Source: Alphaproteobacteria bacterium (GTDB lineage: Bacteria; Pseudomonadota; Alphaproteobacteria; SMXS01). Taken from it: a DNA stretch of 64,000 nucleotides. The translations under genes were made by a program, and so were the position numbers. Below are positions 13,539-29,400 of the stretch, piece by piece. Position 1 is the stretch's first letter; every line of letters starts with the position of its first letter. The notes beneath the pieces are model-generated. The model searched no databases. It saw only the letters and a program-made list of their open reading frames with translations, and was not told the origin of the DNA. The DNA is taken from NCBI GenBank assembly GCA_028284945.1, contig JANQQJ010000034.1, positions 1 to 64,000 of the forward strand, given 5' to 3'.

Positions 13539-14315
13539 CTAGGGCGTCAATCCGGCGGACTTAAGCAGGTCGATGGCTGCGGCAATGGGTATGGCAAAGC
13601 CAATACCGGACACTTCCGCCGCCGGGCCATCCTTCATCTCCTGCACATAGCTGGAATTAACAACGCCGATCACTTTGCCCGTCTCCAGAGCTATGACCGG
13701 TCCACCGCTATTACCCGGCAGGGTCGTCCCATCAAGCTGATAGACCAGGCCGTTGCGCTGGAGCGCGCGAATACGATCCGGCGTCAGGTCGCCGCCGGAC
13801 GGTGCGGGCCGCGAGATGCGTGTATGGGCGGAGATCATCGCCCGGTGGCTCGCCGGGTAAAGGCCGAAAACGGCACCGATGGGAAACCCGGAGAGCAGAA
13901 CATCTGTTCCCTCCGGCGCCATTGCCGCATCGCTTATCGCCATTGGCGGCAACGCGCGACCCTCCATCTTCAGCAGCACAATGTCATTGGCCTTGTCTTC
14001 AGCAATCTTGGTCACAGCGCGAATTTCCCCATCTTCGCCCGAACCGACAATGGCAGTCAGCCTGCCGCCGGGCGCGCTACCGCGGCTATTGAAGACATGA
14101 AGCGCGGTCAGGATATGGAGACCGTCTGCAACGACAAAACCCGTCCCCAGCAATTCCGTCGCGGGCTGACGCAAGGAATCATGCGTACCAATGGCAACCA
14201 GCGACGGCTTGGCCTTGGCGATGACATCGATGGCCTGTTGACCGGCCCGCGCGGGCAAGGTCATCAGAAGCGCCACAACCAGCGCCGTGGGCCATGTCAC
14301 GCTCAACCGCTTCAC
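13539..14315 (-). CDS. Exported trypsin-like serine protease coupled to xrtA
   Basis: A 258-residue secreted protein with a signal peptide (residues 1-24, ending PARA). The chymotrypsin-fold triad is intact: His73 in TALHVF, Asp111 in NDIVLLK and Ser203 in LPGNSGGPV. It is most like DegP/HtrA-type protease domains but has no PDZ domain and ends just after the protease fold. The start is GTG at 14315, overlapping the xrtA stop by four bases, so it is translationally coupled to the exosortase gene. A role in maturing or clearing PEP-CTERM proteins in the periplasm is inference. Confidence 0.85.
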   Translation of the reverse strand: MKRLSVTWPTALVVALLMTLPARAGQQAIDVIAKAKPSLVAIGTHDSLRQPATELLGTGFVVADGLHILTALHVFNSRGSAPGGRLTAIVGSGEDGEIRAVTKIAEDKANDIVLLKMEGRALPPMAISDAAMAPEGTDVLLSGFPIGAVFGLYPASHRAMISAHTRISRPAPSGGDLTPDRIRALQRNGLVYQLDGTTLPGNSGGPVIALETGKVIGVVNSSYVQEMKDGPAAEVSGIGFAIPIAAAIDLLKSAGLTP

Positions 14316-15847
14316 TTCAGCATGTCCATTGGTGAAAGGTCATCCAAGAAGAGCTGGGCCGCCTGACGCGCCGCGTCAACATCTCCATCATAATCCGTCG
14401 ATATCGCGAATACGGCCGAGGCCTGATCGCCACCGAGCAATCGTGCCTTCGCCGCCATCAATTTTGCGTTCAGCGACCCAATAGCAAGTTGGTCATCAAT
14501 CCAATAGGCGTAGAAGACGATCCGGGCGCGGCCACGGCCAACAATTCGGATATAAGCAAAGGTTCGATCCTGCCCGGCGATGTCGAGATTAACTGTACCC
14601 TCAATCCCGGTGTGCTGCCATCGGTCACCGGCCAAGTCGTTTTCCGAATTGATCAGTTCGGCGCCCTGCCGCTGATAATCATAATAGGCGACATAGAGGT
14701 CGAGCTTGTCTGCCCCCTTGGTATAACGCGCAATCACCTCGCTGTCGGTGCCTCGGAACACCGGATGCCAGTCAAGACCGCGATAAGCCATCTGCCGCCA
14801 GCCGGCCGCCGCAGGCGGCGCCTTGAGTTCAGCGGCTTTGCCTGGCGATACTTCGGTATAGGCGGCGTATGCCGGCGCCAACGCGGCCAGGATCACAGCT
14901 AGCATGCCCGCCATCAGCGTCCGCCCCTTTTTCGCCGGCTCCTGCGACACTGACGTGATCTGTCTGGCAGCAGGCAGGGAATCCGCCATCCGCCAACAAA
15001 TGCCGACATAGATCAGCAGGACAAACAGAAAAAACCAGAAGCCGTAGATGATGTGATCAACGTCCTGCCCGTGCCGGCCCTCTGTATGGTAGACGATCAG
15101 GACGATGCCCAGAGCCCGCAGCCAGTTGGCGACAATCGGTACCAATAGGGCGAACGCCACGGCCCCCACCCGGCGTGGCCAGCTTTGGAACAAGAGATAG
15201 CTGGCGAGCAACCCGATCTGGAACATCACGGTCAGGTAGCGAATGCCCGAACACTCTTTCGCCACATGGAAAAAGTGATAGGGCTGCGACCCATCGGCCA
15301 CCTGAATGATGTAGCCGTCGGTGGCCACAGGCAGCCCAATAAACTCGCCGGACAGGACAAGAAACCCCGCCGTCCATTGCTGAAGCGTGGGGATCAGCGC
15401 TTCGCCCAACGGCACCAGAAAGATAAGAAATGCCAGCGGGAACCAGAGTGTCAACGCCACCCGCCAGCCGAAAATGATCAGCACAAGGCTTTGGAGTATC
15501 CCGACCACAGCCAGCTGCTGAACCACCTGAACATTGGCCGCATCGCCCAGCAGCCATCCCAGTCCAGCCAGAAACAGAAACACAAAACCTGATGGCGCGA
15601 CCTGCGGCGTCAGCGCCGCCAGCCGGTCACGATTCTCCCAGACCAGATAGGCGATCACAAAGGGAACAACATAGGTATGCTGATAACTGTCCGAGACGCG
15701 CCAGGTCTGCTCCATGGCCGCCAGCGTCGGCCAGAAAAGTACCACAACGCCAATAAGCGCCGCTGCAAACACGCCGACCGGTACCGCCCAGGCCTGATTG
15801 AGCGGCATGGGGCGCATGGCCTGCCTATCTGTGGTCACTGTCTCCAT
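14312..15847 (-). CDS. xrtA: Exosortase A fused to EpsI domain
   Basis: A 511-residue integral membrane protein. Residues 20-290 carry multiple membrane spans and the proposed transpeptidase residues: Cys199 in AKECSGIRY, Arg244 in NWLRALGI and His265 in DHIIYGFW. Exosortases are thought to recognise the PEP-CTERM tail of exported proteins, cut it and attach the protein to a surface carbohydrate or lipid. After a transmembrane span near residue 310, residues 325-505 match the EpsI-type periplasmic domain that is fused to XrtA or encoded beside it. It follows the glycosyltransferase stop by nine bases. The likely substrate is encoded at 41414-43252. Confidence 0.93.
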   Translation of the reverse strand: METVTTDRQAMRPMPLNQAWAVPVGVFAAALIGVVVLFWPTLAAMEQTWRVSDSYQHTYVVPFVIAYLVWENRDRLAALTPQVAPSGFVFLFLAGLGWLLGDAANVQVVQQLAVVGILQSLVLIIFGWRVALTLWFPLAFLIFLVPLGEALIPTLQQWTAGFLVLSGEFIGLPVATDGYIIQVADGSQPYHFFHVAKECSGIRYLTVMFQIGLLASYLLFQSWPRRVGAVAFALLVPIVANWLRALGIVLIVYHTEGRHGQDVDHIIYGFWFFLFVLLIYVGICWRMADSLPAARQITSVSQEPAKKGRTLMAGMLAVILAALAPAYAAYTEVSPGKAAELKAPPAAAGWRQMAYRGLDWHPVFRGTDSEVIARYTKGADKLDLYVAYYDYQRQGAELINSENDLAGDRWQHTGIEGTVNLDIAGQDRTFAYIRIVGRGRARIVFYAYWIDDQLAIGSLNAKLMAAKARLLGGDQASAVFAISTDYDGDVDAARQAAQLFLDDLSPMDMLK

Positions 15848-15856
15848 ATGGCCATT

Positions 15857-17053
15857 CTACGGTTTCAGCAGGCGATCCAATACCGCCAGATTTGCCTCCC
15901 ACGCATAGTCGTTAACGACACGCTGACGTGCGGCGCCACCATCCGGTCCGCCGGTACCTTGTAAAATGGCAATGACCGCGTCGGCCATGCTATCCGGCGC
16001 ATCGACGACGGCGAGTTCCCCGAGTTCGACCTCGTCCAGGCCTTCTGCTGCCTGTGGTGAAGCGACAACGGGCAGCGCCAGTGCCATGGCTTCCAGCACC
16101 TTGTTTTGTATCCCCCGCGCAATTCGCAGCGGCGCAACGGCGCAAGCGGCGTGAGCCAGATAGTTCTTTGTATCATCAACCGCGCCTGTCACAACGATGC
16201 CCGGCTTTGAGGCCAGCGCCTCCACTGCCGCTGTTGGTTTAAAGCCGACAATGTAGAACACAGCCTGCGGACAGCTCTGCCGTACCCGGTCCCACACATT
16301 TTCGGCAAACCAGACGACCGCGTCTGCATTCGGCCAATAGTTCATGGCGCCGGTAAAGACCACCGCCTGCTGGTCAGGCGGAAATGGGTTGGAAAAGGGC
16401 TGTTCCGGCGAGAAGACTTCTGCATCAACGCCGTTCGTCAGCGCATATGTGTGATTGGCGGCCTGAGGCACACGGTCACGGAACAATTGGGCCTCTCGTT
16501 CCGACACAAACAGACACGCATCGACCTGTTCCGCGACGGTCGCTTCATAATCTGCCAAGCGTGCTGCTTCGCGAGCATAAAGCGCCTTGAGCGGACCGGA
16601 TTTCGTAGTGGCATATTGCGCCCATTTATCGGAATCGACGTCGACGAAGTCCATCACAACGCGTGTTCCAGCCCCTTTCAGGGCGGGCAGTGCCAGCGCC
16701 ATCTGCGACGAGAAACATAACGCTGCTGCGGGTTTCGCCTCGCGAACCCTCTGTCCGACCCAGCCCAGAAAATCGCGATCCCGATAATAGGCAACTGATA
16801 GGGCCTCATTGCGCCAGAAGGCACCGATGTTGCGCAATTGCCCACGCCATGATGGCAGATTCACATAGTGCGTTGAGGCACAAAGGGAATCCAACTTTTC
16901 CCTGTGCGTCCAATCCTCGGGGTCGTCGATGAAGCAACCCAGATGCACCCGGTAGCGTGCCGCCAGATATTTCAACATATGCCAGGACCGGATTTTGTCG
17001 CCCTTATTGGGCGGGTACGGAATCCGGTGGACCAGGAACAGCAGGTCGTCCAT
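15857..17053 (-). CDS. Glycosyltransferase, XrtA locus type 1 (GT-B fold)
   Basis: A 398-residue family-4-like glycosyltransferase. The N-terminus LFLVHRIPYPPNKGDKIRS and the C-terminal donor-binding region (IARGIQNKVLEAMALALPVVAS near residues 330-350) match the glycosyltransferase commonly called Stp1 in PEP-CTERM/EpsH loci. It probably adds a sugar to the lipid-linked repeat unit of the exopolysaccharide on the inner face of the membrane. The donor sugar is unknown. It lies three bases after the FemAB gene. Confidence 0.85.
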   Translation of the reverse strand: MDDLLFLVHRIPYPPNKGDKIRSWHMLKYLAARYRVHLGCFIDDPEDWTHREKLDSLCASTHYVNLPSWRGQLRNIGAFWRNEALSVAYYRDRDFLGWVGQRVREAKPAAALCFSSQMALALPALKGAGTRVVMDFVDVDSDKWAQYATTKSGPLKALYAREAARLADYEATVAEQVDACLFVSEREAQLFRDRVPQAANHTYALTNGVDAEVFSPEQPFSNPFPPDQQAVVFTGAMNYWPNADAVVWFAENVWDRVRQSCPQAVFYIVGFKPTAAVEALASKPGIVVTGAVDDTKNYLAHAACAVAPLRIARGIQNKVLEAMALALPVVASPQAAEGLDEVELGELAVVDAPDSMADAVIAILQGTGGPDGGAARQRVVNDYAWEANLAVLDRLLKP

Positions 17054-17056
17054 CGC

Positions 17057-18094
17057 CTAACCCAGGCCCCGCGAAACCATCGGGCCGACGAAATTGGCGA
17101 CAGGCAGTGGAAGCTTTGACCAAAGCGATGTCATCCAGCGAAACTTTGGATTGTTCGGACTGATATCCGGCAATGCCCCGCCCTTAGGCAGATAATATTC
17201 ATAGGCGAGCGGCTGTGGCTCAAAACCAAAATTCTTTTTGAACGCATAAGGGCCGGACCCGGTCTTGCTGCGCCCAAAATCAAAACTTGTGCAGCCCCGT
17301 TCAACCGCCCGGCACATCAAATCGTAGTACATGAAGTCATGTGCTCCCAGGCGGCGGGCCACAGGCGCGCCCCCGGCATAATAGGGCAGCACCTCATCAC
17401 GGAAGTAAAAGCTCATCAGACTGGCGACCGGTCCGTCTTCCGTCATGACGATAGCGATCTCGCAGGCCGACCCGAACACCTGTTTGAGTGCGGCGAACCA
17501 TCCCTTGGCAAAAACGGGGGTTCCAAGATTACGAACGCTTTCAGCGTAGAGCGGATAAAACCGGTCTATGCCGTCATCCAGCTCTATCCAGAGCGCACGC
17601 TCCAGCGCTTTGCGAACGACCGCACGCTGTTTGCGCGGAATTGCCTTCAACAGGTCCTCTGGATTGCCCGCGATGGACTTGCGGAATGTGGCATGGGCGT
17701 CAGTCCGTGTCTCCCAATCAGATTGACTGCATTCAATCGAGCGTATTTCAAGGAAGTCCACGTTGAGACTATCAGCCATGGCGACCGCCGCGCGTGACAG
17801 CGCCGCCGCTGCATCCTCATTTAGGGCCAAGGGGCCGCCATAAACCGCAAAAGCCGTCGACGACAGATGGTGGCCAAACAACAGGCTTTTGACCTGGGAC
17901 AGTGGCATAACGCCGACGATGTCCCGGTTCTGCCGGACGACGAAATAGGGACAGCTATGCCGAAATGCCTGCTCGATAGCGGTTTTCCATCCCGAGAGAT
18001 GAAAGAACGTCGCTTCCGGCGATTGCCGAACAAACGCATCCCATTCCGGCATCTTTTGCGCGGTCAGTTGTTCGATTGCGATTCCCAATGTCAT
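17057..18094 (-). CDS. FemAB-like acyl/aminoacyltransferase, PEP-CTERM associated
   Basis: A 345-residue protein of the FemAB/GNAT-fold type found in PEP-CTERM loci. The conserved C-terminal part has HDFMYYDLMCRAVERGC and FDFGRSKTGSGPYAFK (residues 240-285), which resembles the aminoacyl-tRNA-dependent transferase core. The true substrate has not been established for this subfamily, and aminoacylation of the polysaccharide or of lipids is only a suggestion. ATG 18094 is chosen over TTG 18118 because it avoids overlap with the deacetylase and leaves GGTGAG before it. Confidence 0.82.
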   Translation of the reverse strand: MTLGIAIEQLTAQKMPEWDAFVRQSPEATFFHLSGWKTAIEQAFRHSCPYFVVRQNRDIVGVMPLSQVKSLLFGHHLSSTAFAVYGGPLALNEDAAAALSRAAVAMADSLNVDFLEIRSIECSQSDWETRTDAHATFRKSIAGNPEDLLKAIPRKQRAVVRKALERALWIELDDGIDRFYPLYAESVRNLGTPVFAKGWFAALKQVFGSACEIAIVMTEDGPVASLMSFYFRDEVLPYYAGGAPVARRLGAHDFMYYDLMCRAVERGCTSFDFGRSKTGSGPYAFKKNFGFEPQPLAYEYYLPKGGALPDISPNNPKFRWMTSLWSKLPLPVANFVGPMVSRGLG

Positions 18095-18104
18095 CGCCGG
18101 GCGC

Positions 18105-18932
18105 TCACCGGGCCTCAAGGAAGACCCGGTCCATCCGGTCCCATTCGAAGTCGGTCAATGCGCGCCTGATCTTGCCCTGCATCGCCCCCAGGCGCGCGTA
18201 GTGGCGGAACCGGGATTTCAGCGGCGCGTTCGCCTGGCGCGGCTGGTCCGGATCGATCTCCCATGGATGGAAGTAAAACATCGCCGGGCGTCCTTCATCC
18301 CTGTTCACCCGGCGCCACGCCCAGCTGGACCAGGCATAGGGCAACAATCTAAAGTATCCGCCGCCTCCGCATGGCAGCACCCGCCCCAGGGCCCGTACGG
18401 TGGTGACCGGTATCTCAGTAAGGCTTTCGCCTATGGAATAGGGAAACCGCTCGCCACCAGGAACGCCATAATGGTCGTGCTGGATGGGGTAGATGCTGGA
18501 GCTGTAACGGTAACCCGCTTCAGCCAGCCGCTCATGCGCCCAGGGGGTCGACCCATCGATGGAAAAACTGGCCGCGCGGTACCCCACAACCGGACTGCCC
18601 GATACGTCTTCCAGCAGCTTTTTCGTGTCGCTGATATCGGCAAAGAACGCGTCCGGCGTTTGGTCGCTGACCCTTATATGCCGCATGCCATGGCTGGCGA
18701 CTTCGTGCCCTTCCGCGATCATGCGTTGAATCAGGCCGGGATAGCGTTCCGCCACCCAACCTAGGACGAAGAACGTGGCCTGCGTGCCGGCCTCGGCAAA
18801 CAGGTCTAGAACCGCATTTGTGTTGCGATCAACCCGTGGTTCGTGATTTGACCAGTCGGCTTCATCGATTTGGCCGGCAAAAGCCTGAACCTGAAAATAG
18901 TCCTCTACGTCGACTGTGAGCGCGTTGCGCAT
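18105..18932 (-). CDS. Polysaccharide deacetylase, XrtA locus type
   Basis: A 275-residue NodB-type deacetylase. VDVEDYFQ at residues 7-14 supplies the catalytic and metal-binding aspartates, and ASHGMRH gives the two histidines of the metal site. It lacks an obvious signal peptide, as is usual for this subfamily, which begins directly with the MRNALTVDVEDYF block. It probably removes N- or O-acetyl groups from the exopolysaccharide or its lipid-linked precursor. ATG 18932 is preferred to a TTG six bases upstream. Confidence 0.88.
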   Translation of the reverse strand: MRNALTVDVEDYFQVQAFAGQIDEADWSNHEPRVDRNTNAVLDLFAEAGTQATFFVLGWVAERYPGLIQRMIAEGHEVASHGMRHIRVSDQTPDAFFADISDTKKLLEDVSGSPVVGYRAASFSIDGSTPWAHERLAEAGYRYSSSIYPIQHDHYGVPGGERFPYSIGESLTEIPVTTVRALGRVLPCGGGGYFRLLPYAWSSWAWRRVNRDEGRPAMFYFHPWEIDPDQPRQANAPLKSRFRHYARLGAMQGKIRRALTDFEWDRMDRVFLEAR

Positions 18933-18952
18933 GATCAAACAGCCCGTGCCGG

Positions 18953-20452
18953 TTACTTCCGGCGCTTCAGCGCCTTTACCGCCTTGGTCAGCAATTTTTC
19001 AGTCTTCTTAACCCGTTTTTCGACCTTATCGAGCCGTTCAAGCAGGGCTTCGGCTTCGGCGTTCGACGAAGACTGATCCGAAGCCTCATCAGGCTTGGGA
19101 ACACCGGTCAGTGCGGCCCGCACAAGCGCTTGATCCATTGACGCCAGTTCCCGCGACACGGCCCGGTAAAGCATGCTGGCTGTCAGTGGCCCAAGGCCCA
19201 GCCTTTTTGAGTCACCGCCCTCGGCCAATTGATCCGGGCCTTCAGGTGCGCCTTCCTCGCCGAACAGGTCCGCACACAACAACCGGGGAAGCGCCGGGTC
19301 AATCCGGCCAAGTTCAGTAATAATGGCGGCCACGAGTTGCTGATCACCGGATGTACCCGGAGCCACCACGGGCGTCGGTTCCGGCGTCTTGGACGGCGTG
19401 ACCGAGCTTTCGGAGGCCGGGGTTTCATCTTCCACCCTGACCTCAACGGTTGGCGCCGCACCTGACTCGGCGCTGGCATCCGTTTCGATCACGCTGCGCC
19501 GGTCAAACGCCACGGGAGCTACATCATCGGTGTCTGATTTCCGCCGGTTCTGCAGGTCGGCTGTCTCTGAGCCCGTATCGGCCGATGTTCCAGCAACTGG
19601 AAGAGCTGACGCGCCGTTTTGTCTCTCGTCTGGGCTATTGTCCACAACCAACTCCGCGGTGACCTTTGCAACGGTATCTTCATTGATTTCATGCAGTGAT
19701 TCCAGCGAACCATGGAGCAACAGCCGGGAACAAAGTTGATTGATCCGCCTGGGAACGCCGTTGCAGAACACATGAATGGCGCCCGTCGCGGCATCCGTGA
19801 AGGCGGGGTCCCCATCCCAGCCAACCTGGCGCAACCGATGCTGTATGTAGTCTCCGGTCTCCTTAACGTCGCCCAAGGCGGTCAACGCACACGACGCGAT
19901 AATGCGTTGCTGAATGGGTTCAAATGCGTCCGATTCAGCCAACTTCTGGCGCAATCCGGCACCACCAAACAGGATCAACTGCGCCGGCGCATCGCCGTCG
20001 ATCAGATGATCAGTGACCAGTCGGATTTCGTTTAAGAGGTCCACGGTCACATCGTCGGCTTCATCGAGAATGATCAGAACGCGCTGTCCGACCTTTGCCG
20101 CGCTCTCCAAAAACCCACGGAGCCGCTTAAGAAGCGCGTCCCGCGTTAGTCCTGCGTGATCGATACCGAGTTTTGACGCGATTTTGCCAAGTACCCGGTC
20201 CGCCGCGATATGGTCGGCGGTTAAGCTGGCATAGACATAGTCTTCGTCGTCCAGACCAGCCAGAAAGTGCGCAAGCACGGTCGACGTCCCGGTTCCTTCA
20301 TCACCGGTCACAGCAATGATACCGTCACGCTGGCTGAGTCCGTAAGTCAGATAGGACAGCGCTTTATCATGGGTCCGGCTGGGGAAATAAAACCCCGGAT
20401 CAGGCGTCAGCTGAAAGGGAACCCCGGTCAGATTGTAAAAGGTGCTGTACAC
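18953..20452 (-). CDS. Degenerate secretion-ATPase paralogue with long C-terminal tail
   Basis: A 499-residue protein whose first 260 residues are closely similar to the AAA-type ATPase encoded next to it at 20533-21429 (both begin MY..FYN, share PFQLTPDP, GIPRRINQL or GVPRRINQL, and place the P-loop at residues 50-58). Its P-loop reads GDEGTGTST: the essential lysine at residue 56 is threonine (codon ACG), while Walker B (LIILDEADD) is kept. Residues 275-499 are an acidic, low-complexity region ending in a lysine-rich coiled coil. The start is GTG. ATP hydrolysis is probably lost; a regulatory or scaffold role is inference. Confidence 0.85.
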   Translation of the reverse strand: MYSTFYNLTGVPFQLTPDPGFYFPSRTHDKALSYLTYGLSQRDGIIAVTGDEGTGTSTVLAHFLAGLDDEDYVYASLTADHIAADRVLGKIASKLGIDHAGLTRDALLKRLRGFLESAAKVGQRVLIILDEADDVTVDLLNEIRLVTDHLIDGDAPAQLILFGGAGLRQKLAESDAFEPIQQRIIASCALTALGDVKETGDYIQHRLRQVGWDGDPAFTDAATGAIHVFCNGVPRRINQLCSRLLLHGSLESLHEINEDTVAKVTAELVVDNSPDERQNGASALPVAGTSADTGSETADLQNRRKSDTDDVAPVAFDRRSVIETDASAESGAAPTVEVRVEDETPASESSVTPSKTPEPTPVVAPGTSGDQQLVAAIITELGRIDPALPRLLCADLFGEEGAPEGPDQLAEGGDSKRLGLGPLTASMLYRAVSRELASMDQALVRAALTGVPKPDEASDQSSSNAEAEALLERLDKVEKRVKKTEKLLTKAVKALKRRK

Positions 20453-20532
20453 GGATCACACAAAACGAACGGCGCCGGAAATCGACAAACTGCGGGGTCG
20501 GCAAGCACCGGTCCGGATCAGAACCGTCGTCT

Positions 20533-21429
20533 TCATTGCCCCGATCCGTCTTTGTTCCAGGCCAGCGAAACCGGCCGCTCACCCCGTTCAAACGAGGCCA
20601 GCGGGTTGGGATCCCACTCCGCGCGCATTTCGTTGCAGACCTCTTCGACCGCCTGCTCGTCAATCGTTGGCTGCTCAGCAAGGAACCCATGCAGCAGGAG
20701 TCGCGATGCGAGCTGGTTGATGCGGCGCGGAATGCCGCCACTGAATTCATGAATAGCATCAATGGCCTCATCGGTAAAAACCGGATCACCACTGTGGCCG
20801 GAGACCTTCATACGGTGGTCGATGTAATCGCGGGTCTCTTCAGCGCTTGCAAGCGGCAACAGGTGGCAGGCAGCAATCACCCGCTGGCGAACCTGTTCAT
20901 GGCCGGCGCCTTCGGCAATCCGCGCACGAAACTCAGGCTGCCCGACCAGAATGATCTGCATCAGGGCTTTGTTGCCGACCTGGTAGTTCAACAGCATGCG
21001 TAGCTGTTCGAGTGACGCGTCACTCAGGTTCTGCGCTTCATCGACAATTAGAATGACGTTTTTGCCGTCTTGAAAAGCTGCTTTAAGCACCCCGTGAATC
21101 TTGCTGATGACGGTCGCGCTGTCCTTGCCTTCGGGATCGATCCCGAAACCCGACGCCACCAGCCTCAGCGCCATATCCGGATCGCCATGTGGTGTTACCA
21201 GGCTGGAGACTAAGAACCGGTCCTCAGGCAAATCATCGACAAGACTGCCGATGACAGTGGTCTTTCCAGCGCCAACCTCACCAGTCACAACGATAAAGCC
21301 TTCGCCTTGATCCAGACCGAAGGTCAGATAGGCCATCGCCTTGCTGTGCGACCGGCCACCGAAATAGAACGCCGGATCCGGTGTCAGCTGGAAGGGGTTA
21401 CCCTTGATATTGTAAAAGTCGTGGTACAT
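20533..21429 (-). CDS. Secretion ATPase of the XrtA/PEP-CTERM locus (ExeA-like)
   Basis: A 298-residue AAA ATPase like the general secretion protein ExeA. Walker A GEVGAGKTT is at residues 50-58 with Lys56, and Walker B is LIVDEAQN near residue 128. Family members accompany exosortase A and polysaccharide export genes and are thought to power assembly or export of surface polymer. ATG 21429, preceded by GAAAGG, is chosen over TTG 21441. It is followed after an 80-base gap by the paralogue with the broken P-loop. Confidence 0.9.
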   Translation of the reverse strand: MYHDFYNIKGNPFQLTPDPAFYFGGRSHSKAMAYLTFGLDQGEGFIVVTGEVGAGKTTVIGSLVDDLPEDRFLVSSLVTPHGDPDMALRLVASGFGIDPEGKDSATVISKIHGVLKAAFQDGKNVILIVDEAQNLSDASLEQLRMLLNYQVGNKALMQIILVGQPEFRARIAEGAGHEQVRQRVIAACHLLPLASAEETRDYIDHRMKVSGHSGDPVFTDEAIDAIHEFSGGIPRRINQLASRLLLHGFLAEQPTIDEQAVEEVCNEMRAEWDPNPLASFERGERPVSLAWNKDGSGQ

Positions 21430-21629
21430 GACGCCTTTCAAGACCTAGGTGTCTTGCCCGAAATTGCCATAACGGGCTCCAAAACGGTCATTGCCATGCT
21501 GTGGTTGCCGGCCTCGTTACGCCCGCCACCGCCTGTTCCCAGGGCACTAATCAATCGAGTAACGCATTCACCGAATCGGTGCAATTCTTTTGAATTGATC
21601 GAAATCTGATCGGTTTGCGCCACGCAGGC

Positions 21630-23081
21630 CTAGAATGTCGCCCGCAACGATCCGGAAACAACGTTCTCCGTACGGTCAACACCAGCGATATTCGATTCCA
21701 GAGTTGAGAATGTATAGCTCAACTGGCCGGTGAGCTGCTTTGAAAAATCATAAATGATCGATGTTCGAATGCCATAAAAGTCATCTTCACGGCTGGGCCC
21801 ACGATCAAAATCCGTATGGCGATAGCGCAGATCCACCGCGACGCGGAAGTGTTCGTTCAAGTCGCGGGAAATACGTCCCCGCAAATTGAACTCGCGGACT
21901 TCCTGCATGCGCAGGTCAAAGAGGCGCCTTTCAAAATAGCCTTTGATATCGACGCGTGTCCGCCGGTGGTTATAGATGATATCAAATTCCACCCTCCTGC
22001 TACGGAACGTGTCGTTTTCAAAGCCGAAGATTGCATCATCCGGATCGATCACCGAGCCAAATGGGTCGGTGAAGATGTCGTTCTCGTCAAAGTCCGACCC
22101 GCCCACAACAGTGGAAAAGCGGCGCTGGGTCAACGAGACTTCCGTGCGGTAGGACGCACCAAAGCGCCAGCGCTTACGCTCGTAAAACGCCTCGACTTCG
22201 AACCTTTTTTCATCATTCTCGCGCCCATAGGTCACCGTAATGTCGGTGTTCCGGGTCGGATTGATGCGAATGCCAACGTCCCAGATGAAGTCATCGATCC
22301 GATTATTGAGGTCCAGGTCGTCCAGTTTCTGCCAGCCCGCGGAACCCAGGATTCCCAGCCAGTTGAGAACCCGGTATTCAATCCCCGCCACGATCTCGAT
22401 TTCCTCTTCGTCGCGGGTACCACGACGCCGGTCACGAATCTCATAACGTCCCAAAATGTTCCAACGGAGACGGCCAAAACGGTCGCCGCTATCGATCTTC
22501 AGCTGGCCCATATGGCTTGTGTAGTCATCGATAAATCGTGGTGTCGGATCGTCCTGGGTAGGGTCTTCCACCGTCAGGAAGCGCAGCTGATAGCGCCATT
22601 CGACATCAGCAATCCGTCCCAGACGGTGCCGCAGAAAGGGCGAAACACCGAGCGAAATGACCTGCCGGCGGTTGCGGGACAGATTGTCCTGCGAGAAGGT
22701 CACCGAACTGGTTTCGTCAACGAAAGGTTCAGCAACGATCGCCGTTGCGGAGATAAACAGATTGCGTTCAATCGGTTCGATCAGGAATTTAGACTGCAGA
22801 CGGTTGCGCCAATCGGTTCTGTCTTCGTCCACGAAGTACATGAAACTGCCGTCATAAGACGCCTCGAACCGCACACGGTTGCCTTCGCTGGCGACAAAGA
22901 ACCCGGGCTGGACGCGCAGGACCACGTCTGACCGTTTCACGCCATCATCAAGGTCGACATTGTCAGTAAAGGTAACGTGAGACGAAATCCGCGGTTCGAA
23001 ACGCCACTGGCCTGCCTGTGCCGGAGCGGCGCAGCATACCGCCACACACAATGCGGCAACCGCCGCGCCTGCGCGCTGCAC
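21630..23081 (-). CDS. Outer-membrane beta-barrel protein, PEP-CTERM locus
   Basis: About 483 residues with a signal peptide (QRAGAAVAALCVAVCC, ending AQAG) followed by many short amphipathic strands rich in Arg, Asp and aromatic residues, for example RVRFEASYDGSFMYFVD, and a C-terminal strand ending in Phe (VSGSLRATF), typical of outer-membrane barrels. It matches the large barrel that accompanies XrtA loci and may form the outer-membrane exit for polysaccharide. The start is uncertain: GTG 23081 gives a compact signal peptide, while TTG 23138, two bases after the kinase stop, would add 19 residues. Confidence 0.82.
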   Translation of the reverse strand: MQRAGAAVAALCVAVCCAAPAQAGQWRFEPRISSHVTFTDNVDLDDGVKRSDVVLRVQPGFFVASEGNRVRFEASYDGSFMYFVDEDRTDWRNRLQSKFLIEPIERNLFISATAIVAEPFVDETSSVTFSQDNLSRNRRQVISLGVSPFLRHRLGRIADVEWRYQLRFLTVEDPTQDDPTPRFIDDYTSHMGQLKIDSGDRFGRLRWNILGRYEIRDRRRGTRDEEEIEIVAGIEYRVLNWLGILGSAGWQKLDDLDLNNRIDDFIWDVGIRINPTRNTDITVTYGRENDEKRFEVEAFYERKRWRFGASYRTEVSLTQRRFSTVVGGSDFDENDIFTDPFGSVIDPDDAIFGFENDTFRSRRVEFDIIYNHRRTRVDIKGYFERRLFDLRMQEVREFNLRGRISRDLNEHFRVAVDLRYRHTDFDRGPSREDDFYGIRTSIIYDFSKQLTGQLSYTFSTLESNIAGVDRTENVVSGSLRATF

Positions 23082-23140
23082 ATTCAGGTCAAACCGCCAG
23101 CGCCCCCAAGCCCAGCCTCGTGATTCTGTATTCCGCAAAT

Positions 23141-24097
23141 CTAGCTCTGATAGTACTCGTAGTAGGACCCGAAGCGCACCTTGCCGCCCATGAAGCGGGA
23201 CTTGTTCAGCACCAGGTTGATATGGCGGCATTCGCTCACCAAAGTCAGCGCCTCCATAAGCTGCGACTCACGCGTCCTGTCGGCCTCGACAACAAACATG
23301 ATCTGTCCCAGCCTCTGCGCCAGCACACCCGGTGCACTGCTGGCAAGAACGGGCGAGCTATCAAAGATCACAATCCGGTCTTCATATCGTTCAGACAGCT
23401 CTTTGATAAGGCGGCCGGTCCGCTCGCTTGCCAGCAACTCGGTCGACCCTGGATGCGGACGCCCCGCAGGCAGCACGGTCAGGTTTTCGATATTCGTCCG
23501 TAGCAAGCAATCGGCAATGTCGACACGGTCGTCGACAATAACGTCGATGAGGCCACGATCCGCCTCAACCCCCATGGCGCTCAACAATTGTGGCCGGGCC
23601 ACATCAGCATCGACCAACAGAACTGTGAGGTCGCGTTCCGACGCAACACTGAGTGCCAGATTAAGCGCGCAAAAGGTTTTGCCCTCGCCCGGTTGTGTGC
23701 TTGTCACCAGGATCATGTTGCCGTTTTCGACCCGGTCCGGAGACGATGCCAGTGCGCGACGCAATATCTGGCGTTTTACGATCCTGAATTCCTCTGCCAC
23801 CCGCGTGGGCGCGTCATCCGGCACAATAAAACCGCCGCGGCGCAGATAATTCAGATCGATGTTGGCAGACCGGGAACGCCGCTTACCAGCAGCCGGGGTC
23901 CCGGCAGGTTGGGGTGATGCCTCGGCAGCGGTTTTCTCTGCGTCGCGTGCATCTGGCTCGGCCACAACGTCTTGATCGATAACATCAGTCTCACCTGACG
24001 GCTTCTGCCGTCGCTCAACCGCATCGGCGGCCGCCTGATTGCGCAACCGTTCGGCCGCCCGTTCAATCAAGTCCTTTGTTGGTTCCTCTACGCCCAT
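23141..24097 (-). CDS. Tyrosine autokinase, XrtA exopolysaccharide locus
   Basis: A 318-residue bacterial tyrosine kinase domain (CpsD/CapB type). Walker A STQPGEGKT runs to residue 141 with Lys140, and Walker A' LVDAD is at residues 161-165. The C-terminus ends in a tyrosine cluster (GSYYEYYQS) of the kind that is autophosphorylated. The first 90 residues are a charged, probably flexible region. It is encoded separately from its membrane activator, the Wzz-like protein upstream, whose stop overlaps its start by one base. Cycling of phosphorylation is known to control polymer length in this family. Confidence 0.92.
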   Translation of the reverse strand: MGVEEPTKDLIERAAERLRNQAAADAVERRQKPSGETDVIDQDVVAEPDARDAEKTAAEASPQPAGTPAAGKRRSRSANIDLNYLRRGGFIVPDDAPTRVAEEFRIVKRQILRRALASSPDRVENGNMILVTSTQPGEGKTFCALNLALSVASERDLTVLLVDADVARPQLLSAMGVEADRGLIDVIVDDRVDIADCLLRTNIENLTVLPAGRPHPGSTELLASERTGRLIKELSERYEDRIVIFDSSPVLASSAPGVLAQRLGQIMFVVEADRTRESQLMEALTLVSECRHINLVLNKSRFMGGKVRFGSYYEYYQS

Positions 24098-25671
24098 CAG
24101 GCACCCCCTACACTAGGCAAGGAGCCACCCTGATAGGTCAGGGCGAACGCATAGGCGATCACCAGGCCGATCAAAACAATGGAGAAAGAGGCTATCTCAA
24201 CGCGTCGCCGTCGATTGTAGGAGTCGAACGGCACCGCTGAAATGGTGCCCAGAACGGTCAGGTCAAAGCTGGCGCGCAGCCGGTTGGCTGTCGAGAATGT
24301 GTGGTCGATCTGACTGAGCAGAAAGGCAACACCCAGACCCGCGCCCAACGCGACCAGAAGCGCCGCTGACAGTAATGCCGGGCGATTGGGGCTGCTGGGC
24401 GCTGTCGGCAAGCCTGGCGGCTCAATTACACGGAACTGGACCTTATCAGTCTGTCCTTCCAAATCCTGTGCGATACGCGCGGACTCACGGCGGGTCAAAA
24501 GGTCTTCGTACTTGGCTTTCAGGATGTCGTAGTCACGATCAAGCGAGACCATTTCAGCTTCGACGTTGGGCACTGTCTTGGCGAGGGTCTCCAGCTGATT
24601 GATCGTCGCTTCCTGTTCTGCGATCCGGGCGCGCAAACTTGCCAGTTTGGTTTCATGCTCGACAATTCGGACCTGGATCTGCTCCCAGACCGGGTTCAGC
24701 ATTGTTGCATTAGGGTCCAACGGGCTTTCCTCGCCCCCGGCTGACGCGATCTCGCCCTGGGCCGATTTCTGCTCTTCATAGGCCGCGACGGCCTTCTCCA
24801 GCGCCTCTTCCTTGGCCACCACATCAGGGTGCGCGGATGTGTACCCGGCAGAATCAAGCTCTGCCAGCTCACGCCTCAGATTACCGATCGTCTCAAGGTA
24901 GGAGTATTCGCCGCCGCCGGCTTCAGCCGACCGGAATGCAACATATTTCGGCGCACCGATAAGCTGGCGCTGCATTTCGCCCAAGGTCAGTTCGATATCG
25001 CGATACTCACGCCGCATGGTGACGAGCCGGTCCTTTTCGCCCTGCATCCGGCCAAAGTAATTGCTGTCCCCCGGCAGCAGCCCGATGTTTTCCCGGCGGA
25101 ACTGCGCCCGGCGCTGTTCGGCGTCGCTGAGCTGTTCTTGGTAATCGCGGATCTGCTCGTCCAGAAACCGCCGTGCCTGCGAGATATCCTGGCGGCTGCG
25201 CCCCAGATTACTCTCAACAAAGATCGTTAACAGCGACTGAACGACCCGCTGTGCATCCTCTGGCGATCCATCTTCATAGGTCAACCGGAACAGATTGGGC
25301 GCAACCGGAACCAGCGTTACGTTGTCACGGATACGCGACACCTGGCTAGAGATCTGCCCTTCCGTCGTGGCATTGTGATCCAGGTCCGACATCCGCAGCA
25401 CCCGCTCCAGATTCGGCCGGCTGAGCAGCGTCCGCTGCATCACCTGGACCCGCCTGCTTAGATCCACCTCTACGGTTACGCCACGCAGCAGATCCTTCAA
25501 CATGGTGTCGGTGTCGACATAGATCTGCGCTGACGATTCATAACGATTTGGAATCGATTCCACATATAGCCAGCCGGCCAGGGCGACGACCCAAGCCACA
25601 CCGATTGCATACCAGCGCCGCAGCCATAGCGACCGGATCAACAACAGGAACTGTACGTAGACGTCGTTCAC
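24097..25671 (-). CDS. Wzz-like polysaccharide chain-length determinant
   Basis: A 524-residue polysaccharide co-polymerase. It has transmembrane segments near residues 20-38 and 430-450 plus a C-terminal one at about 493-515, with a long periplasmic coiled-coil region between (residues 150-400, rich in Glu, Arg and Gln). The proline-containing segment before the second span (VIEPPGLPTAPSSPNRP) is the family signature. It sets the modal length of the exopolysaccharide and activates the tyrosine kinase encoded next. The start is GTG. Confidence 0.92.
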   Translation of the reverse strand: MNDVYVQFLLLIRSLWLRRWYAIGVAWVVALAGWLYVESIPNRYESSAQIYVDTDTMLKDLLRGVTVEVDLSRRVQVMQRTLLSRPNLERVLRMSDLDHNATTEGQISSQVSRIRDNVTLVPVAPNLFRLTYEDGSPEDAQRVVQSLLTIFVESNLGRSRQDISQARRFLDEQIRDYQEQLSDAEQRRAQFRRENIGLLPGDSNYFGRMQGEKDRLVTMRREYRDIELTLGEMQRQLIGAPKYVAFRSAEAGGGEYSYLETIGNLRRELAELDSAGYTSAHPDVVAKEEALEKAVAAYEEQKSAQGEIASAGGEESPLDPNATMLNPVWEQIQVRIVEHETKLASLRARIAEQEATINQLETLAKTVPNVEAEMVSLDRDYDILKAKYEDLLTRRESARIAQDLEGQTDKVQFRVIEPPGLPTAPSSPNRPALLSAALLVALGAGLGVAFLLSQIDHTFSTANRLRASFDLTVLGTISAVPFDSYNRRRRVEIASFSIVLIGLVIAYAFALTYQGGSLPSVGGA

Positions 25672-25754
25672 CGACTTACGTCTCCACCAGAGGGTGTCCG
25701 GGATACTACCATATTTTCAGGCAGATATCCGGTACCCTTAAATTCACCGGAGCC

Positions 25755-26393
25755 CTAGAAGAAGCTCTCTGGAATGATGATCACGTCACCTGGGTAGATT
25801 GTGACATTGGCCGAGGTGTCGCCATACCGGATCAAGTCCGAGATACGCACCGTATACTCACGTTGCGAACCACCCTCGTTTCGGACCAGGGACGCCCGAT
25901 TACCTGCGGCAAACTCAGTCAAACCACCGACGCTGACCATGACATCGAGCAGCGTCATATTTGCGCGGTAAGGAATTGACTGCGGTTCAACCGCTTCGCC
26001 GACGACCCGGATCTGCTGCGCAAACGGTCCGACAAACCCCGAAACGATCACCGTCACAATCGGATTGCGGATGTAAACCGAGAGTTTTTCCTCGATGTCC
26101 CGCGCCAGCTGCGTTGGCGTCTTACCCGTCGCTGAAAGGTCTTCGATGAGCGGTACGGAAATCCGGCCATCGGGCCGCACGGTGACCGTTGTGGTCACTT
26201 CCTGATTGCGCCAGACAAAGATGTTGAGCGAGTCGAGCGGACCGATCAGATAGTCTGGTCCAGGCCCCTCACTAGGTGAGACAAAGTTCGCAGCGGGTAG
26301 TTCGCTGTGGGTCTGCGCACATGCCACAAGAGCAGCTGCGCAAATTCCAATCATGACGACTCGCGATAGAGCGCCTTTTGTTCGGGCTATCAC
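25755..26393 (-). CDS. Polysaccharide export lipoprotein (Wza/EpsE-like, short form)
   Basis: A 212-residue exported protein with a lipobox LVACA at residues 22-26. It has the polysaccharide export domain (YLIGPLDSLNIFVWR...VTVRPDGRISVPLI, residues 48-85) followed by one SLBB-type domain (QIRVVGEAVEPQSIPYRANMTLLD). This is the outer-membrane export component of the XrtA cluster, shorter than Wza. GTG 26393 is the first gene after a 228-base gap and so probably starts the long minus-strand operon that runs to the protease at 13539. Confidence 0.92.
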   Translation of the reverse strand: MIARTKGALSRVVMIGICAAALVACAQTHSELPAANFVSPSEGPGPDYLIGPLDSLNIFVWRNQEVTTTVTVRPDGRISVPLIEDLSATGKTPTQLARDIEEKLSVYIRNPIVTVIVSGFVGPFAQQIRVVGEAVEPQSIPYRANMTLLDVMVSVGGLTEFAAGNRASLVRNEGGSQREYTVRISDLIRYGDTSANVTIYPGDVIIIPESFF

Positions 26394-26415
26394 TGTTCCG
26401 ACCTCACTTTTTCCA

Positions 26416-26433
26416 AGGTTCCCCCAAGAACCT
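26416..26433 (-). promoter_or_regulatory. Small hairpin in the leader of the export operon
   Basis: AGGTTC (26416-26421) and GAACCT (26428-26433) form a 6-bp stem with a 6-base loop, 23 bases before the GTG of the export lipoprotein gene. The surrounding 228-base gap (26394-26621) is AT-richer than the genes and must carry the operon promoter, but no convincing -35/-10 pair was found. The GGTTC/GAACC half-sites also appear before the PEP-CTERM cargo gene. Confidence 0.3.
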
Positions 26434-26621
26434 CTTTGTGGAGCGACGTACGCCGTAAAATAACGCGCACTAATTCGCCCCTATGTTGACCTTAATCCCA
26501 GCCCGAGCAGCCTTCCTATACACGTGCACGATGTAATACACTAGTTTTTTCGCATGTTCCCGCAAGGTACGTTCAACGAATTTACACACGCCAAACGCCG
26601 ATTTGAACGATTACGGCAACG

Positions 26622-27860
26622 TTATAAAAGTAATTCTCCGGGGGGATCGTGGCTTAGGAAGGCCTGTGGGCTGGCCGACAATCCATAGGCCCCGGACTGG
26701 AAGACAACCACAAGGTCGCCGACATCTGCACGCGGCAACGCCACGGCATCGCCAAGCCGATCAAGCGGCGTGCACAGACATCCAACAATATCAACGGTCT
26801 CTGCTGGCGCCTGGCCTGCGAGATTACCAATCATCACTGGATAATTCTTGCGGATCACCTGACCGAAGTTTCCGGAAAGGGCGAGGTGATGGTGGAGCCC
26901 TCCGTCCGTCACCAGATAGGTTTTGCCGCGAGAGACCTTGCGGTCAACAATCCTCGTGACGTAAATGCCGGCTTCCCCGACAAGATAACGTCCTAATTCG
27001 ATAGCGAATCTAGCCTTGGGCAATTCGCGGCGCGCACGTTGCAATTCACCTGCGAGCGCCGCCCCGATCCGCTGCAGATCGATGGGCTTATCACCCGGGA
27101 AATAGGGAATGCCGAACCCACCCCCCAAATTGACGGAGCGAACAGTGTCCGGGGCGTGCGCGGACAGACGTAATGCCAGGTCGACCGTGGATTTCTGACA
27201 GGCGATTAGACCGTCGGTATCCAGCACTTGCGATCCTGCAAAAATGTGAAACCCGGTAAAGTCGAGCGGTAAACCCGCAAGCTTGCCAAGCATTTCGGGC
27301 ACCTGTTCCTCATCCACGCCGAATGGCCTGGGGCCGCCCCCCATTTGCATGCCCGTACGGCGCAGTTCGAACTCGGGATTGACGCGGATCGCGACTTTGG
27401 GGCGAGCACCCAAATTCTCTGCCGCACCAGCCAGCCGGGCCATTTCACCTTCGGACTCAAGATTGACGACAATGCCGGCCTCTATCGCAGCCCGCAATTC
27501 GTCGTCGGTTTTGCCCGGTCCCGCGAAGCTGATGTCCTGTGGTGACGTTCCAGCCTTCAGTGCAAGCCGAAGTTCGCCAGCCGAGGCAACATCCAACCCA
27601 TCGACCAACCCAGCCATATGATTGACCACGGCCGGCATCGGATTGGCCTTGATCGCATAGTGAATTTCCAGATCGGCGGGCAGCGCCTGTCGCAGGGCCG
27701 CAACGCGCCGGTCCATCGCGGCCTTGCTGTAAACAAACAATGGGGTCGACCCGGCTTGATCGACAATGGCGCGAAGCGGTTTTCCGGATATGGTCAGGTC
27801 AAGCCCGTCCATACCGAAACCATCGGGCAAGTGCGAAAGATGTTGAAGCGTATCTGCCAT
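26622..27860 (-). CDS. PLP-dependent decarboxylase, XrtA locus
   Basis: A 412-residue fold-III (alanine-racemase-type) decarboxylase related to diaminopimelate and ornithine decarboxylases. The cofactor lysine is Lys71 in HYAIKANP, the phosphate-binding glycine loop is LGGGFGIPYF, and the dimer-partner cysteine lies in VGCLCTPLD near residue 363. This subfamily is known from exosortase A loci, where its amino-acid substrate is unknown. It is four bases downstream of the ligase gene and presumably acts on the same pathway intermediate. Confidence 0.9.
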   Translation of the reverse strand: MADTLQHLSHLPDGFGMDGLDLTISGKPLRAIVDQAGSTPLFVYSKAAMDRRVAALRQALPADLEIHYAIKANPMPAVVNHMAGLVDGLDVASAGELRLALKAGTSPQDISFAGPGKTDDELRAAIEAGIVVNLESEGEMARLAGAAENLGARPKVAIRVNPEFELRRTGMQMGGGPRPFGVDEEQVPEMLGKLAGLPLDFTGFHIFAGSQVLDTDGLIACQKSTVDLALRLSAHAPDTVRSVNLGGGFGIPYFPGDKPIDLQRIGAALAGELQRARRELPKARFAIELGRYLVGEAGIYVTRIVDRKVSRGKTYLVTDGGLHHHLALSGNFGQVIRKNYPVMIGNLAGQAPAETVDIVGCLCTPLDRLGDAVALPRADVGDLVVVFQSGAYGLSASPQAFLSHDPPGELLL

Positions 27861-27864
27861 GGTC

Positions 27865-29400
27865 TCAGCCCGTGAAAAGACGATCCAACTCCTGGTTCAA
27901 TAATGCCCGGTCGATCTTGCCATTGGGATTCCGGGGCAAGTCCTCACGGATCACGATCGCCCGAGGCACCATATATCCCGGCAGTTGCTGGCGGCAGTGT
28001 CCCAATATGTCGTCGGAGGACACAGCATCATCCGAGATCAGGCTAACCGCTGCCACAATCGCCTGCCCTAACGCCGGGTGCTTCGCCCCAAGCGCAACGG
28101 CCTCTGTCACACCGTCAATTTCGTAGATCACTTCTTCAACCTCCGTAGGGCTGACGCGATACCCCGAGGTTTTGATCATATTGTCCCCGCGCTCAACAAA
28201 ATAGAGGAAGCCCTCCGCATCACGCCGGACCAGGTCGCCAGACCAAACGGCCGTCCCTTCAACGCCAAACGCCTCGGGCAACGGCCGGAAGCGCTGTGAC
28301 GTCCGGTCAGGGTCGTTCCAGTAGCCCTGTGCGACCAACGGTCCGCTATGTACCAGTTCGCCGGTTTCATCCGGGTCTACAGATCGGCCATCACCGGTAA
28401 CAACATCAATGCGCGCGTTCGGGATCGCCTTGCCGATGGAGTCCGGCCGCACCTCAACCAGTGCCGGGTCGAGATAGGTAGACCGGAACGCTTCGGTCAG
28501 ACCGTACATCAGGAACACTTGCGTTTCAGGCAGCCTTTCACGCAAATCATCCAAAGCCGTGCGAGGCATCGCCCCGCCGGAGCTTGTTATGTAGCGCAAT
28601 GTTTCCGAGACCGCCCCGGGCCAGTCGATACTCAATAGTTGGAGCCATAGCGGCGGCACACATCCCAACCCCGTGATGGATTCCGCCTCCAGCGCGGTTA
28701 CGACATCCTGCGGAAAAAGGTAGTCCAGCAGCACCGCGGTCGCCCCGTTGAGCAATGCGGTTGAGACCTGCGACAAGCCGTAATCAAAGCTCAGCGGCAG
28801 GACACAGAGGATTCGGTCATCAGGTGTATTGCCCAAATAGGACGCCACGCTCTGCGCACCGACCGTCAGATTGGCATGACTGAGCATGACCCCTTTGGGT
28901 GCGCCAGTACTGCCTGAGGTGTAAAGAAGCGCCGCAAGGTCATCCGGTTTCGTATCAATGTCCTTCGGGGTGCCCCCGTCGGACAGAAATTCGTCCCAGG
29001 AAACTGCCGATGCCGTCGTGTCACCGGTCTCAACTACGAGCAGGTCATCCGGCACCAATCCGTCCAGCGCCTTGGTTCGTTCAGGCGTTGTGAGTAGAAG
29101 GCTCGAACCACTGTCCCGCAGAATATGTGCTGCCTGCCGGCCCTTGAGAACCGGGTTGATCGGCACGAAGACGGCCCCGGCGCGGGACGCCGCAAACAAC
29201 ATGGCGACGGCCTCAAACGACTTTGGCAGATAGACGGCCACGCGGTCGCCGGGCGCAACACCCATGCGCTGAACAGCGGCGGCAACTTGGCCGACCAGCG
29301 CGGCGAATGCCAGATAGTCTATACCCTCGCCACCAAGCCGGAGCGCGTCCCCCTCTGGCCGAAGCCGGGCCCCTTCGCCAATGATCTCGTGAAACAACAT
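27865..29400 (-). CDS. Acyl-CoA ligase-like adenylating enzyme, XrtA locus
   Basis: A 511-residue member of the AMP-forming ANL superfamily. The P-loop YTSGSTGAPKG is at residues 160-170, the adenine motif MYGLTEAFRST near 297, the YWNDPDRTSQRF region and SGDLVRRDAEGFLYFVERGDN near 390-410, and the C-terminal catalytic lysine in NPNGKID. It could form an acyl-CoA or load an acyl or aminoacyl group onto the carrier protein at 30564. It is the first gene of a minus-strand pair with the decarboxylase and is divergent from the GNAT-ACP-hydrolase operon across 60 bases. Confidence 0.88.
   Translation of the reverse strand: MLFHEIIGEGARLRPEGDALRLGGEGIDYLAFAALVGQVAAAVQRMGVAPGDRVAVYLPKSFEAVAMLFAASRAGAVFVPINPVLKGRQAAHILRDSGSSLLLTTPERTKALDGLVPDDLLVVETGDTTASAVSWDEFLSDGGTPKDIDTKPDDLAALLYTSGSTGAPKGVMLSHANLTVGAQSVASYLGNTPDDRILCVLPLSFDYGLSQVSTALLNGATAVLLDYLFPQDVVTALEAESITGLGCVPPLWLQLLSIDWPGAVSETLRYITSSGGAMPRTALDDLRERLPETQVFLMYGLTEAFRSTYLDPALVEVRPDSIGKAIPNARIDVVTGDGRSVDPDETGELVHSGPLVAQGYWNDPDRTSQRFRPLPEAFGVEGTAVWSGDLVRRDAEGFLYFVERGDNMIKTSGYRVSPTEVEEVIYEIDGVTEAVALGAKHPALGQAIVAAVSLISDDAVSSDDILGHCRQQLPGYMVPRAIVIREDLPRNPNGKIDRALLNQELDRLFTG

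Follow-up and report, generated by a model that had tools for sequence, protein, structure and literature searches.

Apparent complementary degeneration of a tandem AAA+ ATPase pair in an XrtA/PEP-CTERM exopolysaccharide locus

In the window (the whole stretch of 64,000 nucleotides of alphaproteobacterial DNA that was analysed), two adjoining minus-strand open reading frames, here called P2 and P1, lie inside a complete XrtA/PEP-CTERM exopolysaccharide locus and encode AAA+ paralogues that appear to have degenerated in a complementary manner. P2 is without the C-terminal tail of its relatives and P1 is without the P-loop lysine, which means that each copy has lost what the other kept. At the level of sequence this is a case of complementary loss after tandem duplication, and the new point is that one ATPase seems to have been split into a motor subunit and a tail subunit. 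That the two products act together as a two-subunit ATPase, with P2 catalytic and P1 bearing the tail, is the reading we favour and consider moderately probable.

The locus and the two copies

The locus, the pair and its immediate neighbours are located as follows.

14312..29400, minus strand: XrtA/PEP-CTERM exopolysaccharide locus holding the P2/P1 pair; the neighbours match XrtA-system models
21630..23231, minus strand: TIGR03016 outer membrane protein, neighbour upstream of the pair (family model match)
20533..21429, minus strand: P2, putative catalytic copy, 298 aa; ATG at 21429, with the ORF opening at TTG 21441
21256..21282, minus strand: P2 Walker A GEVGAGKTT, residues 54-62 (from the translation)
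18953..20452, minus strand: P1, tail-bearing putative pseudo-ATPase copy, 499 aa; the GTG start is common to the orthologues in genomes G002 and G008
20279..20305, minus strand: P1 degenerate Walker A GDEGTGTST, residues 50-58; the lysine is present in all 121 other ATPases inspected
18105..18938, minus strand: TIGR03006 XrtA polysaccharide deacetylase, neighbour downstream of the pair (family model match)

The order of the locus is TIGR03098, TIGR03099, TIGR03027, TIGR03007, TIGR03018, TIGR03016, P2, P1, TIGR03006, TIGR03019, TIGR03087 and exosortase A with an EpsI domain. Over the whole core the best family match of both copies is TIGR03015, and their place is between TIGR03016 and TIGR03006. 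Both score below the curated TIGR03015 cut-off of 324.5 bits (P1 239.1 and P2 314.9; the single-copy G002 orthologue reaches 353.4), and they are therefore called divergent paralogues of the family, on descent and position, rather than annotated members. No third TIGR03015 copy was found in the genome searched at E 0.001. The TIGR03016 frame and the TIGR03018 frame (23141-24097), on the same strand, overlap by about 90 bases (23141-23231), and the true start of TIGR03016 probably lies further inside its frame.

The original prediction had described two adjacent proteins that are alike and align residue for residue through the P-loop, and this held: BLASTP gives a gap-free alignment with 115 of 275 residues identical (42%, E 1e-76). 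The P-loops indeed read GEVGAGKTT and GDEGTGTST, and Thr56 of P1 is explained by one base as proposed, since its codon (20285-20287) is ACG and the corresponding codon is AAG in P2 and in the G002 and G008 orthologues. In P2, Walker A, Walker B and sensor 1 are all intact, and the sequence GAAAGG stands upstream of its ATG. A Shine-Dalgarno-like stretch was not seen before the GTG of P1 (20453-20512), while that of P2 is GAAAGG-like and those of both orthologues are GAGG-like; low translation of P1 is possible.

The ATP site of P1 and of related ATPases

The comparison set comprised 121 loci, 61 from a survey of the class (a match in 55 of 385 genomes at E 1e-45) together with the bacterial family, and 60 more from surveys of the phylum and the order. 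Every one of these loci has exactly one ATPase, and the P-loop lysine is present in 121 of 121, including all 61 of the first batch, 26 of which fall outside the close set. Conservation was counted over the 93 XrtA-type ATPases with E < 1e-60 to the P2 core, the 28 more distant proteins being excluded. No other tandem ATPase pair occurs among the 121 loci inspected. Of 398 genomes of the phylum, 185 gave a TIGR03015 match at E 1e-55, and in 36 of these it exceeds the cut-off; no adjacent pair was seen by eye among the matches listed. Two matches were read by eye in nine of the 221 genomes of the order-level survey; for eight of these nine, the XrtA locus has one ATPase, as judged over about 3 kb on either side or to the contig end. 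The P2/P1 split is known from one genome, the only one of its genus in the sample.

Two TIGR03015-related ATPases (L080:2782-4779 and L079:94-2406), each with a long tail that includes a hydrophobic segment, were met away from any recognisable XrtA locus, in genomes that also contain an XrtA-type ATPase; our guess is that they are ExeA/SPOR-type proteins. When contigs were scanned with P1 as the sole query, three stretches from Weissella matched, with 36% identity over about 77 residues.

Within P1, three positions apart from Walker A are located as follows.

19961..19963, minus strand: P1 Gly164, at the sensor-1 position, following strand 157-163 of the structure model; Gln in 93 of 93
19904..19906, minus strand: P1 Arg183, retained arginine-finger candidate; Arg in 93 of 93, with changed flanks
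19748..19750, minus strand: P1 Arg235 of GxPRRIN, retained putative sensor-2 motif; Arg in 93 of 93

Four residues present in 93 of 93 XrtA-type ATPases are missing from P1 (Lys56, Gln133, Glu141 and Gln164 in P1 numbering), and there is no lysine within residues 41-75 near its P-loop. As predicted, Walker B is kept (Asp130-Glu131), and Gly50, Gly53, Gly55 and Thr58 are retained as well. Judged from sequence, these changes (K56T, Q164G and others) make P1 an AAA+ paralogue whose own ATP site, in cis, is putatively dead, and since P1 is without a Walker A lysine that 121 of 121 others keep, we do not call it an ATPase. At position 133 the change replaces DEAQ by DEAD, which is also found in MuB; MuB is an active ATPase, hence Q133D alone is not inactivating. 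Sequencing error at Thr56 was ruled out, as four residues invariant in 93 of 93 have changed together with many flanking ones. Conservation of Thr56 across XrtA loci, a check proposed with the original prediction, was not found: the residue is peculiar to this genome, and the orthologues keep lysine.

In structure models of poor quality (mean pLDDT 52.6 and 58.2), the predicted core fold of P1 matches initiator-type AAA+ proteins, namely Cdc6/ORC, TnsC and MuB (Z up to 16.2, and also in Foldseek searches). A single-sequence search for solved structures gave no match for P1 or P2; by profile the closest solved relative is MuB (E 7.3e-9). When profiles were compared by hhalign with RuvB of this genome (E 5e-6, probability 86), P1 Arg183 and P2 Arg187 fell on the arginine of DRFG, the arginine finger of RuvB, and the GxPRRIN motif of the ATPases aligned with RuvB GTPR, its sensor 2. 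Gln182, Arg183, Arg206, Arg235 and Asn238, each invariant in 93 of 93, are all retained in P1.

The tail, the single-copy relatives and the duplication

The C-terminal regions of the two copies differ as follows.

18956..19627, minus strand: P1 tail, residues 276-499, 224 aa, homologous to the tails of the single-copy ATPases of G002 and G008
18959..19063, minus strand: P1 terminal basic coiled coil (predicted), residues 464-498, by coiled-coil profile, model helix 461-498 and heptad power
20536..20604, minus strand: P2 stretch after the AAA+ core, 23 aa, without coiled coil, compared with 93 tails (minimum 49)

An extension after the core was found here to be a trait of the family, which P1 has and P2 has not. 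The 23 residues of P2 are fewer than those of every tail among the 93 XrtA-type ATPases (minimum 49, median 91). The tail of P1 consists of a linker, predicted helices between residues 369 and 449 and then the coiled coil. Residues 276-463 contain 32 D/E and 16 K/R, and residues 464-499 contain 6 D/E and 13 K/R. On a C-terminal coiled-coil profile made from other loci P1 scores 15.2 bits, G002 17.9, G008 7.2 and P2 nothing, and the best of 1000 shuffled tails reached 4.7 bits; the heptad power of the P1 segment was equalled or exceeded in 40 of 10000 shuffles. The coiled-coil profile was built from 18 of 33 close tails, which match by construction, and among second-batch tails not used in building it 33 of 58 score at least 7 bits. 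Pfam gave no trustworthy domain match on the tail (best E 0.012). A further XrtA-type ATPase (L056:3427-6795, genome G101), with intact lysine, carries a very long, repetitive, coiled-coil-like tail of about 436 aa after its core, and the size of the tail thus varies widely in the family.

The collection holds ten genomes of the bacterial family, to which the order adds none, and P1 has a match in three of the ten, the window's own genome counted. This patchy occurrence of the XrtA locus suggests repeated loss or gain. In the two others, G002 and G008, the locus is collinear with that of the window gene by gene and has one ATPase where the window has two. This protein has an intact P-loop (GE[IV]GAGKTT), a P2-like core and a P1-like tail of 189-190 aa; the G002 core is 59% identical to that of P2 and 50% identical to that of P1, and both tails align end to end with the P1 tail, terminal coiled coil included, at 26-28% identity. 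The single-copy protein is thus an ATPase of ancestral type, core plus tail. Between G002 and G008 the core is 96% and the tail 47% identical, so that rapid change of the tail is not peculiar to P1. These single-copy proteins carry both the tail and the lysine, which makes the tail an old feature and not something that P1 acquired. The acidic tail with a basic coiled-coil end that the original prediction described in the degenerate copy is accordingly borne out in composition but not as a gain, as G002 and G008 have it and P2 has lost it. Second-copy orthologues with an intact lysine, which that prediction had counted against itself, were found only as these single-copy proteins, in which the lysine goes with a P1-like tail.

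P1, P2, G002 and G008 form one clade in the tree (support 100/97, and 97/83 when the ATP-site columns are removed). As P2 lies inside this family clade, a foreign origin for it is not favoured. The best tree places P1 with G002 and G008 (99/88, and 97/88 without the ATP-site columns), and AU tests reject neither alternative (P1 and P2 as sisters, p 0.20; P2 with the family, p 0.101), such that the duplication may precede the split of the genera, with loss of P2 in the other genus, or follow it.

We propose that this lineage began with a single XrtA-locus AAA+ ATPase, made up of an ATP-hydrolysing core and a tail with a coiled coil at its end, and that a tandem duplication gave two copies of it. 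P2 would then have retained the ATPase site but not the tail, and P1 the fold and the tail but presumably neither the binding nor the hydrolysis of ATP. P2 would perform the ATP-driven work, and P1, if it associates with P2, would be a non-catalytic subunit supplying the tail, which is likely to attach to a further component of the machinery that exports the exopolysaccharide, possibly as a docking element. The two might form a mixed AAA+ ring in which the arginine finger of P1 serves the site of P2.

Alternative readings and relation to known systems

A different account of the pair is that P1 is a decaying duplicate heading for loss and that P2 works alone, without a tail. The missing catalytic residues, the start at GTG without a Shine-Dalgarno-like stretch, the record from one genome and the long branch of P1 would all be expected of such a gene; this branch, among the longest in the tree, measures 1.44 and falls to 0.91 without the ATP-site columns (P2 0.81), the second tree having fewer rows, so that the two values are not strictly comparable. 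Against decay, the reading frame of P1 is intact over 500 codons, with GC by codon position similar to that of the neighbouring genes, and P1 still has its tail, coiled coil included. Among the 39 columns conserved at 97% or more in the 93 XrtA-type ATPases, P2 retains 38 and P1 29, and P1 keeps these columns more often than the others (29/39 against 105/229, Fisher 8e-4). Changes peculiar to one copy were counted against the state in G002 and G008, with the ATP-site stretches fixed before counting. Within these stretches (Walker A, Walker B, sensor 1 and arginine finger) 34 changes are found in P1 only and 3 in P2 only, whereas outside them the numbers are 31 and 34 (Fisher 4e-6 for the contrast). 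P1 thus seems relaxed at the ATP site and as constrained as P2 elsewhere, and with its changes concentrated at that site and balanced outside it, P1 looks like a pseudo-ATPase under constraint and not like a gene in decay. P2 acting alone would moreover be tailless, which none of the 93 compared ATPases is. We therefore regard decay as unlikely. The idea that a duplicated ATPase had become a non-catalytic partner is supported by the same counts, by the constraint on frame and fold outside the ATP site, and by the position of P1 as the lone lysine-less copy beside 121 others.

If P1 is constrained, it may still function separately from P2, as an adaptor or regulator that needs no nucleotide and acts, for instance, on the neighbouring tyrosine autokinase or chain-length protein, with P2 forming homo-oligomers. 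Both the ATP site and the arginine-finger flanks are relaxed in P1 (9 of 15 flanking columns differ, against 1 of 15 in P2), as expected outside a ring, and the tail, a possible docking part, is retained; however, the five invariant residues that P1 keeps from Gln182 to Asn238 need not be kept by an adaptor outside a ring, and the tandem position and the complementary losses favour a joint complex. Such a role appears somewhat less likely even than decay. It is highly improbable that P1 still binds or hydrolyses ATP through an unusual P-loop in which the loss of lysine is compensated: the retained glycines, Thr58 and the Walker B pair would speak for it, but residues 41-75 offer no lysine, the sensor-1 glutamine has become glycine, and the whole cis site is drifting (26 changes in P1 only, against 3 in P2 only, over Walker A, Walker B and sensor 1).

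We return to the preferred reading, that of a catalytic P2 acting together with a tail-bearing P1. Within it, a mixed P1/P2 ring would be compatible with the data, since the arginine-finger and sensor-2 arginines are kept; in view of the drifted finger flanks of P1 we judge it less likely than not. Equally below even odds is the possibility that a homo-oligomeric XrtA ATPase has become an obligate hetero-oligomer, in which P2 would burn ATP under the trans-acting arginine of P1 and P1 alone would carry the tail coupling the motor to the polysaccharide export machine. If it were true, the motor and coupling functions of the XrtA ATPase would have been separated by nature. XrtA/PEP-CTERM loci are widespread, and a natural separation of core and tail would offer a simple genetic handle for telling ATP-dependent from tail-dependent steps, with comparison to the one-protein version in the sister genus being possible.

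The annotation of the TIGR03015 ATPase is that of a hypothetical equivalog. A functional study of the XrtA-locus ATPase was not found in the literature searched, most subscription journals being outside its scope, nor was a report there of a heteromeric or inactive-paralogue ATPase with exopolysaccharide. The parts seen of one paper (PMC5532660) are not about this ATPase, and in a study of floc formation and PEP-CTERM genes (PMC9850573) the word ATPase is absent from the main text. The pair shares its place in the locus with the TIGR03015 ATPases and its clade with the single-copy ones of the bacterial family, and differs from them in the presence of two copies, one without the P-loop lysine and the other without the tail.

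The AAA domain of the secretion-assembly ATPase ExeA/GspA (Aeromonas ExeAB) is related to those of P1 and P2, and its partner ExeB is not an ATPase paralogue. Unlike ExeA, neither P1 nor P2 has a Pfam match to a peptidoglycan-binding domain (E up to 0.001). ExeA is described as working at the inner membrane as part of a large hetero-multimer (PMC4098917). The transposition ATPases MuB, the closest solved relative by profile, and TnsC, among the closest by fold, are described as formers of DNA-binding filaments or rings (PMC11208146); they have no XrtA locus and no such split. Mixed AAA+ rings such as those of clamp loaders and ORC are described as having sites of which some are inactive, with fingers that work in trans (PMC3331839, PMC7450096). 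P1 is similar to these in its apparently dead cis site, its retained sensor-2 arginine and arginine-finger candidate, the latter with drifted flanks, and its predicted initiator-type fold, and differs in that the client here would be an envelope polysaccharide system rather than DNA, the pair being known from sequence in one sampled genome. The P2/P1 pair may represent a rather recent case in which an AAA+ protein apparently turns two-subunit, along the kind of route by which clamp loaders and ORC are usually inferred to have arisen.
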